Origin: Candidatus Omnitrophota bacterium
Lineage (GTDB): Bacteria; Omnitrophota; Gorgyraeia; JABMSB01
Length of the DNA: 42,683 bases
Assembly (NCBI GenBank): GCA_013202205.1
Contig: JABMSB010000006.1
Location: forward strand, 1-42,683
Direction of reading: 5' to 3'
The position numbers and the translations under genes were made by a program. The notes under the pieces were generated by a model, which worked only from the letters and a program-made list of their open reading frames with translations, was not told the DNA's origin and did not search any database. This document shows positions 1 through 40,881 of the stretch, in pieces (the stretch's first letter is position 1; each line of letters starts with the position of its first letter).

Positions 1-3000
1 ATCTTACCCTCTCTCACCCTTACCACTCTGTAATAGATCCCGGTATTCGAGTCAAAATATGATAATTCGTTACCTTCAGCACCAGCAGCAAGCCGACCGA
101 AGAACGGCAAAAGGCTAAGTAGGGTCACGAATATAGCAGGTAGTCTGATCGATAAGAGATCTCCTCTGCGCGCCGGTGTGGCCGCCTGCACCCTAGAATC
201 CTTTTTAGTTCTAAGCCATCTCCAGGCAAAGAATACCACAATGGCTAAGACGGCTACAGTTGAGAAGGCTGTGCCCATCGCCATATACGCTGCAGGCATA
301 ACGACGGTTTGCTTCAATGCACCCGGCATTGCGGCAACCGATCCTGTCTTCTGCTCGGGTGATATATCCGAAATCTTCTCATCTGCCATTTTCATTTCGT
401 CAAGCCTTTGGAATAATTCTTTTAACTTAGACAGGTATAGCTGGACTGCTACCTCTTCTCCTACTCCGAGCGCTTCCGCACCACGATCCCTTCTGATTTC
501 AGCGAGTTTAACAAAGCGCCTGCTGAGCTCATCGTTAAATATATAGCGATACAGGCCATCTATTCTGCTGCGTACTTCCTGAGGCGCCTTTCTATATATA
601 GCTAAATGCGTTTCCGCTTCCTGTTCGTGTGAGAAGTCATCCAATGAAACACGTGTTTTATGATATAAGAGGCCGTGTAGCCCCTCCTCGTTAGTCCCCT
701 TATGCCAGGAATCGAAATCGACATCTGATGGCACGCCAATGTTATTAACCAACGCGGATAATAAGAAGTCTCTATCGGCTCCCTCTGTAATCCCCGCTGC
801 TAATACCAGCCTATCTTCCCAGCCATGGGTGCGTGCTCTAGACCGCGGGTGAATGTGTACATGGTGGTCTTTACTAACTCCTCTCGCCTCTAAACTGGAT
901 AGATATTCATCCGTATAGCTACAGATCTGTGGATGCGCGCACATCTCCCAGTGACCCTTGCGTAAGGCGTCTATCTCATCTACATCACCTGACTCTACAA
1001 GTCTGACAATCTCTCTATCTGTGATTTCATGGCGTTCCCTTGCCGGGAATAGTCTCCCGATCTCATCATCCGTCAGGAGTTCCGCCAATCTTGTATAGAT
1101 AAAGTAAACCGGTAGCTGCATAGGCACACGAGCGGGATAGGTCGCCTCAAGAACTATCTGATTATTTACCGATTTTAGGCAGACCTTACCGCCTTCCTTG
1201 ACGAACGCCAGTCCAAAGAGAGAGGTGAAACGACCCAGGTCGTCTCCCATCGCGCTATAATCGTTTATAAATAAGATCCTGTTGTCTTCGATAAGATCCA
1301 TCTCGGTAATTATGCGGCGCTCCTGTGGCGCAGCGCTTACACCCATAAAAGCGATCCTCTCAAAATTGAGATCGCGATGATTGGCGGCACTTATAAGCAT
1401 AGGTACGCCTTGAGTCTCTACGGTCGCTTCGTAAGTGACACCTGCGCCTGGGAAGTCGATTTCAACTTTCGTTCTACTTTGGCCAATACCGTTTATCTTG
1501 ATATCGCCCGCCTCTATTGATTGCTCTTTTATCTCAACCTGATCACCACCTTTGACGATAGCCAATCTATGTGCACCCTTTAAGACCTTCCCGCTTTCAG
1601 GGTCAAATACTACGTCGATACCGACGCCTTCGATGACCGGGTGGCTCGATACAATTCTAATGGCATCTCTCCCGCGCATCTTAGTTATCGCAGCCGCCAT
1701 TAATGCTGCAACTGTATTACTGCCATACCGTCTCAGCTTTGATGCCTCATCCAAAATCGAGTATCTGCTATCGACGGGCCATCTTTCAGTGGTCACACTT
1801 ACCCAATCCGCTATATCCTTCGACATTGTAACTTCTTCTGCGCTGGCCATACGCGCCAACTTATCTCGCACGTTATCCGTAACTCCCACCTTTTCTCCGT
1901 ATTGTCCCGGGAGGTAGTATATCTGTCTATCCTCAGCTTGCACGGCAAGATCGAGTGGAGTAATCCTTAGCTGTCTATCTTCTTCGACCGAGCTACCTGC
2001 AGTGGCGATCGATCCCGACATCCAGGAAAATTGAGGCATGCCTGTAAAGATTGTGAGCATAATCGCTGCTCCAATAATGGCTAAAGTACCAAATATATCT
2101 TTGCTGATTAGGGCTGGCTCTAATGCATCTCGCCTACGCACAACAAGAGAGCGTCCGATAATAAATATTGCAGCCACAAAGACCGACAGGATACCTATCG
2201 ACCCCATGCCGATAAACATAGCCGGCATCTGGGTAGATGAACCGGGACGGCGACGTAAATAGGCTATCACTTCACTTGCCAACTGCTGGTCCTCGGATTG
2301 CAGCCTTCCTAAAACGCTCCTATCCACCCTCGCTGCCATTGCGAAACTCTCTATCGCTTTAGGACGCATTTGGGAACCCATGCGGTCATATATGACACCG
2401 CGGTGGTATAGATAACTACCATTTCCTGGGTCTAGCTGAACCGCCTTCTGGGCAGGTGCAATTGCCCCCTCGAGATCGCCCGCCATGGCAAGGGCCATGC
2501 TATAATTGTAGTGAAGTTCCGTGTTTTCCGGCGCATATCGCAGGGCCGTTTCATATTCAACACATGCCCTTTCGTGATTACCGGACATACCATAGATGCC
2601 TCCAAGGTTTTGGCGGGCACCTATGTTACGCGGATCCTTGCGGATGGCTTTCTGGCAGGCCTCAATCGCCTCTGGGTAATGGCCTGCCTGTACATATACA
2701 GCACTTATACCTACGTAACTATCCACATCTTCGGGGTTTTTCCTGATCGATTCTTTGTAGGCAGTGATGGCATTCTGATAATCACCTGAATCCCGATAGA
2801 CATTGCCAAGATTAAAATGGGCCTTTGTGTTATGGGGATTAAGGCCCACGGCTATTTTAAGCTCTTCGATCGCCTTCTGATAATCACCTTGGCTGCTATA
2901 TATCGTACCGAGGTTGTAGCGTGATTCAGAATCATCGGGGTCGAGTTCTGTCGACATCTCGTATCTCTCGATCGCTCGCTCTACATCGCCACTGTTATAA

Positions 3001-6000
3001 TGCATGAAACCTATTAATGCATATAAAACCGGTGTAAGGCCGCAATCGCCGAACTTCTTTATAGCAAAATAGGCTGTGTGCATAAGCTCGTCATCTGTGA
3101 TCTGTCTACGCGCATCGTCTAAAACAAGCCTATCCTGCTCAAATTCTGTTCTGAGGGCGTGTAATCTTTCCGGGGAAACTCTATGTTCCTCTCCTAATAC
3201 AGAATACGCACCTTCTTCAGTGTAACGATCGGCGTTTACCACCTTCATTATGCCTAAACTGAAATCGACAATCATAAAATTATCGTGGGCCAATTCTATT
3301 ATATCGAAGGCGTGGTCGCGGGCGCGGGCGCCGTATGCATCAAACTTCAGCAGCTTCAATAAGACGAGTGCCATCTGCGATACCGCGGCGCAGCGCACAA
3401 GTTCACTTGTAAGCGGCGCGGTACTGTCGAGGCCGGTGGTAAACAGCTTGATGAGTGGGCGTGCCTTTTTGGGATCGCTGGTCATATATCCTCGTCCCCT
3501 AAGCGACGTTTCTAATCGGCTAAGGAATGAACGCAGCTCTTCGATGTCGCCCGAACCCCTCACAGAAGCCGCCTCGCGCTGCAATCCGCTAAAGTCTATC
3601 TCTGCAAATAGGCGCTCGAATTCCCTATTTATGGCAAGTTGAGATCCTCTCGGATATCCGAGGTCATCGAGGATCTTTCTGAGGTCTCTGCTCTGTCCGG
3701 AGTTCAGCATTCTGAACAACTTGATGCCGCCAAAAATAACTATTGCGGCAATGGCAACCCATGATACAGCTGCCCCCATTCCCACAAACATCACAGGCAT
3801 CCGGGTGCCAGGTTTTGGAGGATCCTTTCTCTCGGGTGCCCTTTTGGCCTTGAGGAGGTCTACGAGACGCACTGTCTCTTTTGCTTCACCCTCCAGTTTT
3901 TCGACAACCTTCGCCATCTCCCTATAGATATAGCGTGTCTGGAATATCTTTCTATCACCTTCACAACATATTTCTATTACCGCACACTCAGCACTAACAT
4001 TATATATTTGTGTTTGTGTTGCTGAATATATCGCCATGGGGCTACAAATTACACGTATAACATCGACAAGATGTCTTAAGCATGCGACCTTTTCACTGGG
4101 AGGAAGATTATCAAATTCTTCTATGGGCACCTCTAGCATCTCTGTGATAAGTTCTGGGGTAACATCTTCTATCCTTAGCGCCCTATCTTCTTCGCTCTCG
4201 TAATAACCTTCTCTATTATCCAATATGTGCTGCCGCAAATCTTCTGCTGTTCTGAGGCTATCCGACACAGGCACAAAGCTAGCAAAGAGTTCATCCAATA
4301 CTTCTTCAAGCGTTTCGGTGTTCCCAATCCAGTCTTCGGCAAACCACTCAGCTTCGGCCTTATCGAGGCCGCTTTCTCTAAAGGTCGTGATTAATTTATC
4401 TCTATATACCTTTTTGTTCTCTATAAGTCTCCTGGCTTGCGCCAATCCTTCCGCAAACTGCTCCTTCCCGCGAGTGGGATCGATAAACCCGGCCGCTATG
4501 AGCGCCTGTCCTATTGCATAAAAAGTCATGAAGTCGCCACGGAAGTGGTCTATAAACCAGAGTGAGCCTTCTGTGTCGCGCAAACAATTGCCCCTATTAA
4601 AATCGAATATCCCTTCTGTAATACACATAGGTATAACACCCTGGCGTTCTTCGTCCGTCATACTGCGGTGATCTTCTATAAGGTGGCTATTGGCGATATA
4701 GCGGACGAATGCATAATCCCCATCACCGACGGTTCCTCTGAGCACCTCAGGACTATGGAACATCCGGGGATCATCTTCATCCAACATCTTATAGAAGTTT
4801 CTAAAGAGCGCACTACCTGCATATTCAATGCTAAATTGGGTAGGCCGTTCTTTCCTTAATGGCTTGCCTATCCACACTGTGTCTTCTGCCACAACGAGTG
4901 GGAAATGTTTGTTTGTGCTGCCACCAGTATAGTAATACCAGATACTGCCATCCTCATCGGCAGTAAGTTCATATGCGGGTTTCTGCTGCAAGAGCTTACT
5001 GTAAGCTTTATCACCCTTTTTGAGCTGTTGATAGTTTACTAATTTGGCACCCGCCTTATGTGGCACTATAGCTGACATCATCCTGGAGGACATTATGCCG
5101 GCTATCCGCTCTGAGATATAGAGACGCATCTTCGTCCAATTACGTGCAATATATATGCCGAGTACCCCCAGCACTAAAATATTTATTACGATAAGAGCGC
5201 CTATGTGCTCTTGCATGAATGGTGCAATCTGAGAAATGAAGTTACCCTGCGCTGCAACAAAGAATGCAGGGAGTTTGGATCCTTTACGAGGCTCTTCTTG
5301 CTTTGGCAGCTCTTCCTTCTCTTTATCATCTTTAACTCCTCCAACCTGTGGCTCTTCTGCAGCTATAGCCGGCGGGTTGAGTCGCGCGCTATATGCTTGA
5401 TCGAGTTTTGCTACACTTGTAGCTGGCGCTAAACCGCCTGTGAGGAGTGCGAGTATTAGGGCTTCCTGGTTGATAAGTTTGTCCAATTGGGCATCCCTGT
5501 CTTTGAGGAGGGATTTGTATCTTGCTTCATTAAAAACCGTAGTGATACTGGGTGATATGACGATGTAGGAGTAATTGCGTGCTTTAAGGAGCTCAGTAAT
5601 GCCGCTTGTGTGAAAACCTCCCGCAATGAGTATTGCCTTGTCCAAATCTTCGGCTTCCATGCGTCTTATGCTGTTTAGGGTCAGGGATTCGTCCCTCTTT
5701 AAGGCATATTCATAGAAGAGCTCCTGGTGTCGGCAAACCTCATCTAAGTAAACCTGGTCAATCTCCTGATCAGGCAGGAATTCATATACCAGGTGTGATA
5801 TGTTTGTTCCTTTGAGTTTTTCGTAAATCTTAAGCTCTTTTCTTGTCAGATTAATCTGGAATAACTTAATGACCAGTCTTATATACCTGCAGGCCATGTC
5901 TAATCTTCTGTCGCTATCCGTCTGGTAGAGATTTTCTTTTGTCTGTTGGTAGAGATTGTCAAGTTCGTCAAGAAGCCTCTCTTGGTTCAGATCTGTATTT

Positions 6001-7016
6001 AGAGCATTGTATTTGAAATAATTGGAGAGGTTCGGATATGCGCTCTCCAGCCTATATTGAACCATCATCTCTGCGAGGTAGCCGTAGTATTCAGATTCTG
6101 TTATCTGGTAGGAATTGAAGAGCGTCGTCTTTCTTAAGAATTGGCCCTTCTGGGTTGCATCGAGCTTTTGGGATAGGTATCCCACGAAGGCATTTAAGTC
6201 CTGCTGGGTTTCATTAAAGTCTATTCTCCCCTCAAGACGCACTATTTCAATGAGTGTGGTGATATTGGAATACCGTGATAGGTCGAGGGTCAGCTCCTCT
6301 GCCTTACCCTTTAGATAGAGCAGGTGTTCGTCTAAGTTGATGCCGCCTTCTTCGTAGAGGGCATATCTATCTCCGAGCTCTTTTATCTTGGGTGAGAGTT
6401 TTTCCTCCAATAGCGGCAGTACTTCTTTTAACTTCTTAAGACGCGCATTATACATGGGCGTCTCTGACTCCTGGTAAACCCTCAGGTTGTCCAGGTATAT
6501 CTCTCCATCCTCAACACCGTAAAGCTTTAAATCCGTATCCGTTATCGCCGCATATTCTGCCCCTACGAGATGGCCATCTTCCATGAAGAACCTTGTGGCC
6601 CGCTCAACCTTCTCCCTGGGCCCCATATTGGCATATTTAAGCGTGTCGCAGAGGCCTTCTGCTCCCTCGTGGAATATCGTATCTATCTTGTAATTCTCTT
6701 TTAAGTGGGCAATTATCTTCGTTGTCAGATCCTGGGCCTCGGTGTGTGTATGCAGATCCTGGATATGGATGACGAGGCGATCGTCACCCTTATAGGTCTC
6801 TGTGATCTGGCCGTACTCTTGGGGAATTGTTACATCATCGATACTAATTTGGCTGGGAGGGAGGCTGGCGCCGTCGTCAACCGCCACGGAAGTCGGGGCA
6901 CCAAATGCCTCCCTCGCCCATGCCAAATCTAATGTCGTAATAAAAAAGACCATAGCCATAATGAGGCTAATGGTCTTTAAATAGGGCCTATATTGTTTAG
7001 ACTGCCATATTAACAT
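1..7016 (-). CDS. Giant multidomain membrane/TPR protein, 3'-truncated by the window edge (>=2,338 codons)
   Basis: Read by hand on the minus strand from ATG 7016-7014 (MLIWQSKQYRPYLKTISLIMAMVFFITTLDLAWA...). Frame checked at 5282, 2942 and the left edge (...RVVRVREGK), all codon starts = 2 mod 3, with no stop met. Only short antisense or out-of-frame ORFs are in the track here. Contains an N-terminal hydrophobic segment, IQDLHTHTEAQ / HEGAEG / GGFHTSG motifs, several TM segments and a TPR block. Confidence 0.9.
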   Translation of the reverse strand, partial: MLIWQSKQYRPYLKTISLIMAMVFFITTLDLAWAREAFGAPTSVAVDDGASLPPSQISIDDVTIPQEYGQITETYKGDDRLVIHIQDLHTHTEAQDLTTKIIAHLKENYKIDTIFHEGAEGLCDTLKYANMGPREKVERATRFFMEDGHLVGAEYAAITDTDLKLYGVEDGEIYLDNLRVYQESETPMYNARLKKLKEVLPLLEEKLSPKIKELGDRYALYEEGGINLDEHLLYLKGKAEELTLDLSRYSNITTLIEIVRLEGRIDFNETQQDLNAFVGYLSQKLDATQKGQFLRKTTLFNSYQITESEYYGYLAEMMVQYRLESAYPNLSNYFKYNALNTDLNQERLLDELDNLYQQTKENLYQTDSDRRLDMACRYIRLVIKLFQINLTRKELKIYEKLKGTNISHLVYEFLPDQEIDQVYLDEVCRHQELFYEYALKRDESLTLNSIRRMEAEDLDKAILIAGGFHTSGITELLKARNYSYIVISPSITTVFNEARYKSLLKDRDAQLDKLINQEALILALLTGGLAPATSVAKLDQAYSARLNPPAIAAEEPQVGGVKDDKEKEELPKQEEPRKGSKLPAFFVAAQGNFISQIAPFMQEHIGALIVINILVLGVLGIYIARNWTKMRLYISERIAGIMSSRMMSAIVPHKAGAKLVNYQQLKKGDKAYSKLLQQKPAYELTADEDGSIWYYYTGGSTNKHFPLVVAEDTVWIGKPLRKERPTQFSIEYAGSALFRNFYKMLDEDDPRMFHSPEVLRGTVGDGDYAFVRYIANSHLIEDHRSMTDEERQGVIPMCITEGIFDFNRGNCLRDTEGSLWFIDHFRGDFMTFYAIGQALIAAGFIDPTRGKEQFAEGLAQARRLIENKKVYRDKLITTFRESGLDKAEAEWFAEDWIGNTETLEEVLDELFASFVPVSDSLRTAEDLRQHILDNREGYYESEEDRALRIEDVTPELITEMLEVPIEEFDNLPPSEKVACLRHLVDVIRVICSPMAIYSATQTQIYNVSAECAVIEICCEGDRKIFQTRYIYREMAKVVEKLEGEAKETVRLVDLLKAKRAPERKDPPKPGTRMPVMFVGMGAAVSWVAIAAIVIFGGIKLFRMLNSGQSRDLRKILDDLGYPRGSQLAINREFERLFAEIDFSGLQREAASVRGSGDIEELRSFLSRLETSLRGRGYMTSDPKKARPLIKLFTTGLDSTAPLTSELVRCAAVSQMALVLLKLLKFDAYGARARDHAFDIIELAHDNFMIVDFSLGIMKVVNADRYTEEGAYSVLGEEHRVSPERLHALRTEFEQDRLVLDDARRQITDDELMHTAYFAIKKFGDCGLTPVLYALIGFMHYNSGDVERAIERYEMSTELDPDDSESRYNLGTIYSSQGDYQKAIEELKIAVGLNPHNTKAHFNLGNVYRDSGDYQNAITAYKESIRKNPEDVDSYVGISAVYVQAGHYPEAIEACQKAIRKDPRNIGARQNLGGIYGMSGNHERACVEYETALRYAPENTELHYNYSMALAMAGDLEGAIAPAQKAVQLDPGNGSYLYHRGVIYDRMGSQMRPKAIESFAMAARVDRSVLGRLQSEDQQLASEVIAYLRRRPGSSTQMPAMFIGMGSIGILSVFVAAIFIIGRSLVVRRRDALEPALISKDIFGTLAIIGAAIMLTIFTGMPQFSWMSGSIATAGSSVEEDRQLRITPLDLAVQAEDRQIYYLPGQYGEKVGVTDNVRDKLARMASAEEVTMSKDIADWVSVTTERWPVDSRYSILDEASKLRRYGSNTVAALMAAAITKMRGRDAIRIVSSHPVIEGVGIDVVFDPESGKVLKGAHRLAIVKGGDQVEIKEQSIEAGDIKINGIGQSRTKVEIDFPGAGVTYEATVETQGVPMLISAANHRDLNFERIAFMGVSAAPQERRIITEMDLIEDNRILFINDYSAMGDDLGRFTSLFGLAFVKEGGKVCLKSVNNQIVLEATYPARVPMQLPVYFIYTRLAELLTDDEIGRLFPARERHEITDREIVRLVESGDVDEIDALRKGHWEMCAHPQICSYTDEYLSSLEARGVSKDHHVHIHPRSRARTHGWEDRLVLAAGITEGADRDFLLSALVNNIGVPSDVDFDSWHKGTNEEGLHGLLYHKTRVSLDDFSHEQEAETHLAIYRKAPQEVRSRIDGLYRYIFNDELSRRFVKLAEIRRDRGAEALGVGEEVAVQLYLSKLKELFQRLDEMKMADEKISDISPEQKTGSVAAMPGALKQTVVMPAAYMAMGTAFSTVAVLAIVVFFAWRWLRTKKDSRVQAATPARRGDLLSIRLPAIFVTLLSLLPFFGRLAAGAEGNELSYFDSNTGIYYRVVRVREGK
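2320..3060 (-). other. TPR array (about 6-7 repeats) within the giant ORF
   Basis: Consecutive 34-aa units such as SRYNLGTIYSSQGDYQKAIEELKIAVGLNPHN, AHFNLGNVYRDSGDYQNAITAYKESIRKNPED, SYVGISAVYVQAGHYPEAIEACQKAIRKDPRN. Confidence 0.9.
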
Positions 7017-7087
7017 ATAATAACCCTTAAATAATTAGCGAAAAAAATTTTGTTCTCAAATTTTAGTTTAAAAACCGGGTTGTACAT
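7010..7087 (-). CDS. Putative 25-aa leader peptide overlapping the giant ORF start (MYNPVFKLKFENKIFFANYLRVIIC)
   Basis: AAGGAG (7095-7100, minus) seven nt upstream of ATG 7087. The stop TAA (7012-7010) overlaps the giant ORF start ATG (7016-7014). Confidence 0.4.
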   Translation of the reverse strand: MYNPVFKLKFENKIFFANYLRVIIC

Positions 7088-7109: not shown

Positions 7110-7149
7110 CACAAAAGAAGACCGAGCTGCATTTTTTCAGGCAGCTCGG
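7110..7149 (-). terminator. Intrinsic terminator-like hairpin overlapping the riboswitch aptamer 3' end
   Basis: Minus strand CCGAGCTGC-CTGAAAAAAT-GCAGCTCGG (perfect 9-bp stem) followed by TCTTCTTTTGT. Confidence 0.75.
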
Positions 7150-7245
7150 CTATCTATAAAATGGGTGCGTGGGTGGTCCTTCACCCTTTTTCCAGATCCG
7201 TGGCTTTGCGCCCCCACCTCACGATGGGTTCGCCGTTATCTGGTA
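7140..7245 (-). ncRNA. GEMM-family (cyclic-di-GMP-I-like) riboswitch aptamer
   Basis: Minus strand: AGATAACGGCGAACCCATCGTGAGGTGGGGGCGCAAAGCCACGGATCT...AGATAGCCGAGCTGCC. Hallmarks seen: GGC-GAA-CC ... GCGCAAAGCC core, P2 CCCATC-GTGA-GGTGGG capped by a GNRA tetraloop, second stem ATCT/AGAT, and 3' TAGCCG..CTGCC. Confidence 0.8.
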
Positions 7246-7286: not shown

Positions 7287-7315
7287 AGTATACCCTATAA
7301 TAGGCAATTTGTCAA
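7287..7315 (-). promoter_or_regulatory. Sigma70-type promoter for riboswitch/giant ORF
   Basis: Minus strand TTGACA (7315-7310), 17-nt spacer, TATACT (7292-7287). Confidence 0.75.
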
Positions 7316-38592: not shown

Positions 38593-40881
38593 TTAGCTGT
38601 TCTCTACCCTACCAGCGGCTTTAGAATCCCTTCTGAAGTCACCATCCCGGAAAGCAGCTTCAAATGCAACAGTTATCTTGGGGTCAAATTGTGTTCCGGC
38701 ACACCGTGTGATCTCTATTAAACCATCAGCGTCACCCATAGCTTTACGGTAAGGCCTGTCTGAGGTCATCGCGTCAAAAGAGTCGGCCACTGCAATTATC
38801 CTGCCAAAAAACGGTATCTCCTCACCCTTTAATCCTCCGGGAAAACCTTTGCCGTCGTATCGCTCATGATGGCTGTTTATGCCGGGTATCATATCTTTAA
38901 GCTGTTTGATGTGGCTCATCATGTGCGCGCCCAATTCAGGGTGTTTACGCACCTCTGCCTGTTCCTTGTCGTCTAATTTCGCCGGTTTCGCGAGAATGAA
39001 GTCACTTACGCCTATCTTGCCTACATCATGAAGTATTGCTGATATCCTCAGCTTCTCCTTATCCTTTGGGGTCATATCCAATTTTTCGGAGATCGCCATA
39101 GATATCTGTGTTACGCGTTCGGAATGGCCGCGCGTATATGGGTCCTTGGCATCTATAGTCTCGGCTATAGAGCGTATAGAGTTCATGAATAGATCTTTTA
39201 CGTCGTTATATAACCTGAAATTCTCAAGGGCCATCGCGCCCTGATTGGAGAGTATCGATATCAACCTGAGGTCTTCGTTGTCAAAGCGCGCCCTTTTGCC
39301 ACCCTTTCTGTCATCAGGCCTTCTATATAGCGTAAGAACCCCTATCATCTTGTTGTGCATAGCCAGAGGGGCGCATATAATGGACGATGCCCGGGGATCC
39401 TTTACGTCTTTAAACCTCTTATTATGTTTTGTGTCTTCAATCAAGAGTAATTTATTAATATCGATAGCCTCTTTGGCAATTCTTTCGTCTATCCCGGAGA
39501 TAGGGCTATTTAAGATCTCCTCACCTATCCCCCATTTTGCCTTTACCATAAGGTCGTCGCTCTCTTCATCTTTGCTTCTTAAAATAGCTCCATCGGCATT
39601 TACGGCGTGGGCTGTAATGCTCAATATAACTTCCTGTGTCTTACCGACGTTCAGATGTACGGCTGATTGGCCTGCTTCCAGAAGCGTGTCAAGCTCTACA
39701 TCCTTCGCCATGATAAGCCTATCTTTATATCGCATTCTCAATATCGTGGTGAGCGCATAATTTAATGTTGTGGAAAGATAGAGCGGCATGATCTCAACGA
39801 CCAATTGCTTATAAACGAATAAGGCAAGCGATGCGCCAAAGATCCCTATGACTAAGAGGAGCGCGAAGACAAACCCCTTAACCGGAGAAAGTTTTATGAG
39901 AGCTGCTCCAAGAAAGATGGATACAAACACAATGGAAAGGACAAGGGCGAGCGCACCCATAGGCCGCAGAAATTTCTCACTTAAAATGGTATTCATCACG
40001 TTTGCCTGGACAACAACACCATAGCTCTCTCCAAAAGGCGTCATAAGGATGTCTGCATTAGGCAGGCCTTGTGCTGTCTGGCCTACTATGACCACCTTGC
40101 CCTTAAATAGATCCTGAGGAAACTGGCCCCTGATTATATCCCTTGAAGGAACAGCCGTCTTTATACCGGCGTAATTGATATACATGGACTTATTTTTGTA
40201 AAGCGGTATCGACAAACCTTCGAAGACCACATTGCCGTCTTTTAAATCCAAAACTTTCGGCGGCACATCCTTATGCATAAGTCCGCCCATAAGCCCCAGG
40301 GCCAACCGTACCCTATCCCTGAACTTTATCGCAATAGGCATCTTTCGGTAGACGCCGCCATGGTCAGCAATTACATTGATGTGCCCGGTCCCGACCGCCG
40401 CTTCGTCGAGGATAGGGATATTTCCTATCAATTGCTCCGTCTTTAGAAAATAACTCTTTGACTTGTCAAGGGTGAGCGGGATGGGTGAGAATTCCGGCAA
40501 TAGGACATTCCCTGCCTCACGGATAGCGCGTGCCAGTTGGATATCTTCTGATTTGTCGGATGAGGGTACGGGGAAAAATGTATCGAAGACTATTACCTTA
40601 GCGCCTGAAGATTTGAGACGATCTATGAGTGTCGTATAATGGCTGCGCGGCCAGGGCAGCTTACCCAATTCGTTGATACACCTGTGGGTAATGCCTACGA
40701 CCATTACATCAGGATGTATCCCTTCCTCCCCGCGCATCTTAAAACGGAGATCTACGGTAAGGTTTTCCACATTATGAAGAATCCCGAGATAAAAAAATAA
40801 GAGCGCGACCAAAGCCGCGCATATACCGACCTTTATGCCGAGCCATTCCTGCCTATCTATGAATACAAATTTTGTCTTCAC
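38593..40881 (-). CDS. CHASE2-TM-GAF-HD-GYP sensor protein
   Basis: CHASE2: TVDLRFKMRGEEGIHPDVMVVGITHRCINELGKLPWPRSHYTTLIDRL. GAF: INADGAILRSKDEE, SIICAPLAMHNKMIGVLTLYR. HD-GYP: AILHDVGKIGVSDFIL, HHERYDGKGFPGGLKGEEIP. Confidence 0.93.
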   Translation of the reverse strand: MKTKFVFIDRQEWLGIKVGICAALVALLFFYLGILHNVENLTVDLRFKMRGEEGIHPDVMVVGITHRCINELGKLPWPRSHYTTLIDRLKSSGAKVIVFDTFFPVPSSDKSEDIQLARAIREAGNVLLPEFSPIPLTLDKSKSYFLKTEQLIGNIPILDEAAVGTGHINVIADHGGVYRKMPIAIKFRDRVRLALGLMGGLMHKDVPPKVLDLKDGNVVFEGLSIPLYKNKSMYINYAGIKTAVPSRDIIRGQFPQDLFKGKVVIVGQTAQGLPNADILMTPFGESYGVVVQANVMNTILSEKFLRPMGALALVLSIVFVSIFLGAALIKLSPVKGFVFALLLVIGIFGASLALFVYKQLVVEIMPLYLSTTLNYALTTILRMRYKDRLIMAKDVELDTLLEAGQSAVHLNVGKTQEVILSITAHAVNADGAILRSKDEESDDLMVKAKWGIGEEILNSPISGIDERIAKEAIDINKLLLIEDTKHNKRFKDVKDPRASSIICAPLAMHNKMIGVLTLYRRPDDRKGGKRARFDNEDLRLISILSNQGAMALENFRLYNDVKDLFMNSIRSIAETIDAKDPYTRGHSERVTQISMAISEKLDMTPKDKEKLRISAILHDVGKIGVSDFILAKPAKLDDKEQAEVRKHPELGAHMMSHIKQLKDMIPGINSHHERYDGKGFPGGLKGEEIPFFGRIIAVADSFDAMTSDRPYRKAMGDADGLIEITRCAGTQFDPKITVAFEAAFRDGDFRRDSKAAGRVENS

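Follow-up and report, generated by a model that had tools for sequence, protein, structure and literature searches.

The minus-strand reading frame at 3..7016 of the window, a term used here for the whole stretch of DNA analysed (42,683 bp, the entire contig C34), is a real gene and represents the 5' part of a giant gene from an Omnitrophota bacterium. With moderate confidence we favour the view that it encodes an exported string of modules, anchored repeatedly in the membrane, headed by a hydrolase of the Ere/ChaN/TIKI type and placed under the control of a riboswitch (Table 1). No stop occurs in the 2,338 codons that start with the ATG at 7016, against 78-182 in each of the five other frames of the same stretch, and at the local base composition a run of 2,344 codons free of stops would arise with a probability of about 10^-58. 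Codon usage in the giant frame also follows that of the neighbouring genes (RSCU r 0.77 vs. 0.11-0.64 in the other frames). Homology is found at both ends of the frame, namely for residues 1-540 (N-terminal domain), 918-1082 and 2253-2338 (contig C18 of the same genome) and 1100-1545 (Cys-His-Asp module and TPRs), and a frameshift artefact is therefore not needed. The frame has no stop because C34 ends there, and its length of at least 2,338 codons is a lower bound; among the contigs of the same genome (1.50 Mb, 94 contigs, 92% complete) none was found that exactly overlaps base 1 of the window. The initial annotation had claimed a continuous minus-strand frame of at least this length and had named an in-frame stop, or a frameshift shown by read mapping, within 1-7016 as its refutation; the claim holds on the translated frame, which contains no stop, and on codon usage and homology alike.

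Table 1. Features of the giant gene and its leader in the window (all on the minus strand).
Feature	Position	Basis or remark
Sigma-70-type promoter TTGACA-17-TATACT	7287..7315	11/12 consensus positions
c-di-GMP-I-GGC riboswitch aptamer (RF03167)	7136..7243	63.5 bits, gathering score 59
Intrinsic terminator hairpin GCCGAGCUGC/GCAGCUCGGU + U-rich tail	7113..7150	MFE fold z = -4.4
Possible 25-aa leader ORF (MYNPVFKLKFENKIFFANYLRVIIC), AAGGAG upstream	7010..7087	sequence only
Giant ORF	3..7016	2,338 codons, ATG at 7016, open at contig edge
Signal peptide / first TM, residues 1-40 (...LDLAWA)	6897..7016	hydrophobic segment
Conserved Ere/ChaN/TIKI-like domain, residues 41-520	5457..6896	profile relatives, residue pattern
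D87	6756-6758	invariant polar residue, N-terminal domain
H89	6750-6752	invariant polar residue, N-terminal domain
E117	6666-6668	invariant polar residue, N-terminal domain
R441	5694-5696	invariant polar residue, N-terminal domain
H469	5610-5612	invariant polar residue, N-terminal domain
Membrane linker 1 (KLPAFFVAAQG...TM), residues ~561-627	5136..5336	motif + TM
Module, residues 640-1060 (initially termed kinase-like)	3837..5099	C-terminal 153 codons recur in C18
Membrane linker 2 (MPVMFVGMG + TM), residues ~1055-1105	3702..3854	motif + TM
Cys-His-Asp transglutaminase/papain-like module, residues 1100-1330	3027..3719	invariant C, H, D
C1209	3390-3392	invariant in 9/9 sequences
H1235	3312-3314	invariant in 9/9 sequences
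D1251	3264-3266	invariant in 9/9 sequences
TPR array, residues 1331-1545, ~6 repeats	2382..3026	repeat detection
Membrane linker 3 (MPAMFIGMG + TM), then signal-peptide-like hairpin (RRR...TM...SIATA/GSS)	2028..2279	motif + TM
Orphan module, residues 1665-2230, DHHVHIHPRSRARTH at residue 2050	327..2024	no relatives found
Membrane linker 4 (MPAAYMAMG + TM), then signal-peptide-like hairpin (RR...LLSLLPFFGRLAAGA/EGN)	72..335	motif + TM

The N-terminal domain is widespread in the phylum. A profile search detected it in 173 of 384 sampled Omnitrophota genomes (45%), at least 54 of which belong to classes other than that of the window organism; this count replaces an earlier one, set aside because some of its weak matches were to the Cys-His-Asp module. 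A contig scan with the single sequence returned no relatives and an alignment-based scan returned 486. Relatives of residues 1-540 share about 30% identity, and named ones occur also in Auribacter, Theseobacter and the Bugula-associated PVC bacterium AB1. With about three candidates scored per genome, copy number is a lower bound, and a first look at four genomes (G404, G410, G402, G398) gave 50-57 candidates per genome, which suggests dozens of copies in some genomes. The frames that carry the domain range from stand-alone proteins (about 515-575 aa) up to 12,701, 23,964 and 35,113 aa, and its position in them is consistently N-terminal, starting at a median residue of 52 (n = 80 relatives, numbered from the preceding stop).

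Across 77 aligned sequences, about 28% identical to the window protein, D87, H89, Q95, E117, G118, G167, Y174, R441, G466, G467, H469, Y484 and P489 are fully invariant, including the polar set D87, H89, E117, R441 and H469 (77/77). The spacing between H89 and E117 is 28 in 76/77 and that between R441 and H469 is 28 in 66/77. The catalytic set of EreC (E47, H50, E78, R261, H289) has 28 residues both from the first His to the Glu and from the Arg to the second His (PMC7979712), the His-Glu spacing of 28 recurs in RRSP (His-3902/Glu-3930) and BcR135 (His-85/Glu-113; PMC6254334), and EreC, HopBA1 and BcR135 are members of one superfamily (PMC7979712, PMC6254334). The agreement of both spacings with EreC, recognised after the fact and not predicted beforehand, therefore points to the Ere/ChaN/TIKI hydrolase superfamily. 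The domain has an acidic residue near the first His, a Glu at +28, a second His and an Arg, the acid being Asp and not Glu; this Asp is found at -2 relative to the first His, like Glu-3900 of RRSP, whereas the Glu of EreC lies at -3.

Pfam gave no match above its cut-off for the N-terminal domain. PF04187 (ChaN, TIKI superfamily) appeared below threshold in 13 of 29 members (best E 0.009) and TraB in one, and PF04187 stayed below the cut-off in the giant frames as well (2.9e-4 for one of them). The AlphaFold2 model (pLDDT 90, pTM 0.84) had no Foldseek match at E 0.001; its weak top matches include EreC (two), HopBA1 and BcR135 (E 0.19-0.6, TM ~0.13-0.30; best superfamily match E 0.19, TM ~0.2), the others being mostly coiled coils and helical bundles. 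The domain resembles Ere/ChaN/HopBA1/TIKI (TraB) proteins in its D-x-H motif, E at +28, R followed by GGFH with the His at +28 and sub-threshold PF04187 matches, and possibly in a predicted small beta core with a helical lobe inserted between the motif halves; it differs from them in the Asp/Gln ahead of the first His and in its fusion to giant tails. Formal membership of the superfamily is supported in part, and the residue pattern and its spacing make it probable that the domain works as an Ere-like hydrolase.

Downstream of this domain the frame is divided by four copies of a membrane linker (residues 581, 1073, 1597 and 2240), to which contig C18 adds two. The linker consists of the motif xMP-[AV]-x-[FY]-x-[GA]-MG followed by a TM segment, often W-R-W and a basic tail, the first copy being the most divergent, and after linkers 3 and 4 come a basic loop, a second hydrophobic stretch, a signal-peptidase-like site and acidic sequence. 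Seven hydrophobic segments are present in all, in keeping with the multiple TM helices of giant ORFs from Omnitrophota hosts. Positive-inside charges fit an alternating topology at most segments, with the exception of the TM at 1073-1096, which is net positive on both sides and therefore makes the sidedness of the 640-1060 module ambiguous. This last module was modelled from its single sequence with an AlphaFold pLDDT of 37, and for the orphan C-terminal module with DHHVHIHPRSRARTH searches of 197 genomes, Pfam and PDB found no relative; only two of the four non-TPR soluble regions of the window have relatives outside their own genome.

The second region with such relatives, at residues 1100-1330, contains C1209, H1235 and D1251, a Cys, His and Asp of catalytic type and in this order, invariant in 9/9 sequences, and is followed by the TPRs. 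Pfam gave no match for six members of the module, nor for the window's own domain. Of 292 genomes, 27 carry the module, which is found in short frames (426-621 aa, with a stand-alone Cys-His-Asp-TPR protein of 560 aa that has its own signal peptide, L150) as well as in giant ones of 70,450, 45,379, 33,383, 21,496, 14,247 (two copies) and 13,934 aa. The carriers include L182 (G230:C2:149402-150076; 70,450 aa), L175 (G079:C5; 33,383 aa) and a frame at G024:C1:1273766 (45,379 aa); in L148 (G027:C16:26619-27203, 21,496-aa frame) internal lipoprotein-signal-like sites (LFTAC/SS, LFFSC/KK) flank the Cys-His-Asp-TPR module. The recurrence of this module, together with that of the N-terminal domain, places two modules of the window in a pool common to the largest frames of the phylum. 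Transglutaminase/papain-like Cys-His-Asp domains followed by TPRs are known, for example from SirB1-type proteins, with which the module shares the order of Cys, His and Asp and the TPRs behind them; unlike these, it has no Pfam match, forms a family apart with invariant Gly/Tyr positions of its own and is often embedded in giants. The TPR-based names MamA, PilW and O-GlcNAc transferase were rejected as generic TPR matches.

The mosaic drawn in the initial annotation can be revised on these grounds. Its signal/TM N-terminus corresponds to the hydrophobic segment at residues 1-40, with a counterpart ahead of the domain in 76 of 78 relatives, its hydrolase-like region gains support from the Ere/ChaN/TIKI-type residue pattern, its repeated TM modules are borne out by the four-copy linker motif and its array of 6-7 TPR units by the roughly six repeats at residues 1331-1545. 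The kinase-like reading found no support, Pfam and PDB sequences giving no match for the region. To the picture are added the Cys-His-Asp domain, the leader with its promoter, c-di-GMP-I-GGC riboswitch and terminator, and the family-wide character of the N-terminal domain.

The aptamer in the leader scores above the gathering threshold of its model, and the 5' arm of the terminator is the 3' strand of the aptamer, an overlap that predicts an ON switch with transcription when ligand is bound. In both respects the element resembles c-di-GMP-I (GEMM-I) riboswitches, of which RF03167 GGC is a variant, and its ligand may be c-di-GMP or a related dinucleotide. The stop of the putative leader ORF overlaps the ATG of the giant frame (ATGTTAA). 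The same genome contains eight matches to the aptamer model, four of them above the curated cut-off, and six GGDEF domains, and the window itself encodes, at 38593-40881 (-), a CHASE2-GAF-HD-GYP-type protein that is a probable c-di-GMP phosphodiesterase. Elsewhere, tandem c-di-GMP-I-GGC-type aptamers precede a small exported protein (L157/L161; G000:C3:13-89, 214-292), and their sequence is found also at the end of contig C19; an aptamer of 58.6 bits, just under the cut-off (L160; G000:C31:4842-4929), precedes an exported protein that has a HEMLH (HExxH-type) motif and is matched by no Pfam family. One further c-di-GMP-I-GGC aptamer lies upstream of a GTP-dependent PEP carboxykinase (L156; G000:C92:17529-17639), an unusual target that may hint at a different ligand. 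Upstream of the relatives' genes Rfam revealed a riboswitch in 0/20 loci, and the aptamer pattern gave two doubtful matches among 77 and nothing among 29 more; a riboswitch as a trait of the family was rejected, since the relatives' loci are without the aptamer, and this control would thus be local. No earlier report of a c-di-GMP-I-GGC riboswitch controlling a giant ORF was found in the searchable literature.

These elements can be combined into a mechanism in which transcription from the sigma-70-type promoter would produce a leader RNA with the c-di-GMP-I-type aptamer; binding of c-di-GMP or a close relative would let the aptamer hold the 5' arm of the terminator, allowing read-through and expression of the giant ORF. 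The signal peptide would direct the giant protein to export and the first domain would act as a hydrolase outside the cytoplasm, its residues D87, H89, E117, R441 and H469 positioning a water molecule at a carbonyl in the manner of EreC. The further modules, set off by the repeated MPxxF-x-MG membrane linkers, would include the Cys-His-Asp unit (transglutaminase/protease-like) and the TPRs as a binding array, and together they may form a structure of the cell envelope for binding and modifying polymers of the envelope or of prey surfaces in surface-attached growth.

The hairpins that follow two of the linkers, each with an AxA-type site ahead of acidic sequence (SIATA/GSS; AAGA/EGN), raise the question of whether the frame is a polyprotein of fused secretory proteins, from which signal peptidase, cutting after linkers 3 and 4, would free individually anchored modules and leave no giant at the surface. 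Both assignable modules do exist as stand-alone proteins with signal peptides (N-terminal domain 516-575 aa; Cys-His-Asp-TPR 560 aa, L150). However, the second hairpin is missing from linkers 1 and 2, and in V. archaeovorus peptides were mapped to a giant protein for which a role as a giant has been proposed (PMC10066038); we regard this processing as rather unlikely. That the product is a non-enzymatic adhesin or coat, its modules structural and its N-terminal domain, catalysis lost, serving only as an export or assembly head, appears quite unlikely. The invariance of five catalytic-type residues in 77/77 sequences at about 28% identity would not be explained by a purely structural use, although the superfamily has non-hydrolytic members, with ChaN binding haem and PMT being without the 2His/2Glu motif (PMC7979712, PMC6254334), and coat and adhesin roles have been proposed for giant Omnitrophota proteins (PMC10066038).

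Contig C18 bears on the reality of the downstream half of the architecture. It is 3,106 bp long, with an open frame of 1,034 aa that contains two linkers and HEAT-like repeats as well as a copy of residues 918-1070, within a stretch of homology at 918-1082, residues 2253-2338 being matched too. Its end is identical to 4132-4267 of the window over 136 bp, and 1-130 of the window is 93% identical to C18 2341-2470, so that the assembly graph branches within the giant gene; C18 may lie farther downstream in that gene, represent a strain variant or be a paralogue. Internal repeats in the gene would account for the break in the assembly. In two repeat segments shared by C18 and C34, synonymous changes predominate on a per-site basis (Ka/Ks 0.26 and 0.48). 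An extension of the ORF through C18 was dropped, as the repeats that C18 has in common with the gene do not fix its place. The contig end and C18 could on this basis be a chimera or a mixture of strains, which would make the downstream half of the architecture spurious. We hold this to be very unlikely, given that the frame codes without a break along its whole length, that the Cys-His-Asp domain and TPRs stand in the same order in unrelated genomes and that four linkers of one family lie inside C34 itself. Going beyond the exported, membrane-anchored module string favoured here for the window, the Omnitrophota giants at large might be one unrecognised system, with a conserved hydrolase head of the Ere/TIKI type and interchangeable exported modules (Cys-His-Asp-TPR and others) carried on repeated membrane-linker/signal-peptide units. 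Recombination at the linkers within the genes would have assembled them, they would mature as polyproteins, and in this species a cyclic-dinucleotide riboswitch would switch them on upon surface contact, a speculation that we consider doubtful at present.

Some of the largest known proteins come from Omnitrophota, and giant ORFs in this phylum have already been described (PMC10066038, PMC12057145, PMC11573180), among them that of a 39,678-aa protein of Velamenicoccus archaeovorus, and were found to be poorly conserved, with few annotated domains and of unknown function (Seymour et al. 2023, PMC10066038). In the same work giant ORFs are defined as those exceeding 20 kb; the frame in the window, at least 7 kb and cut by the contig edge, does not reach this length as far as it runs, and relatives of its N-terminal domain exceed it. 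No description of the common N-terminal domain, the common module or the riboswitch was found in a literature search that left most subscription papers and all preprints outside. The N-terminal domain, at about 500 aa, occurring also on its own and having a full hydrolase-type residue set, offers a small, expressible and testable part of an otherwise unapproachable class of proteins; the Cys-His-Asp-TPR module, present in frames of up to 70,450 aa, provides a second handle on the giants, and the riboswitch is a direct clue to when one giant gene is used. As one more giant ORF of the Omnitrophota the gene is ordinary, and it resembles those reported previously (PMC10066038) in its phylum, its very long frame, its several TM helices and its few annotated domains; unlike them, it has an N-terminal domain and a Cys-His-Asp-TPR module common to the large frames of the phylum, together with a riboswitch of its own, and is unusual as the first handle found on what these giant frames share.
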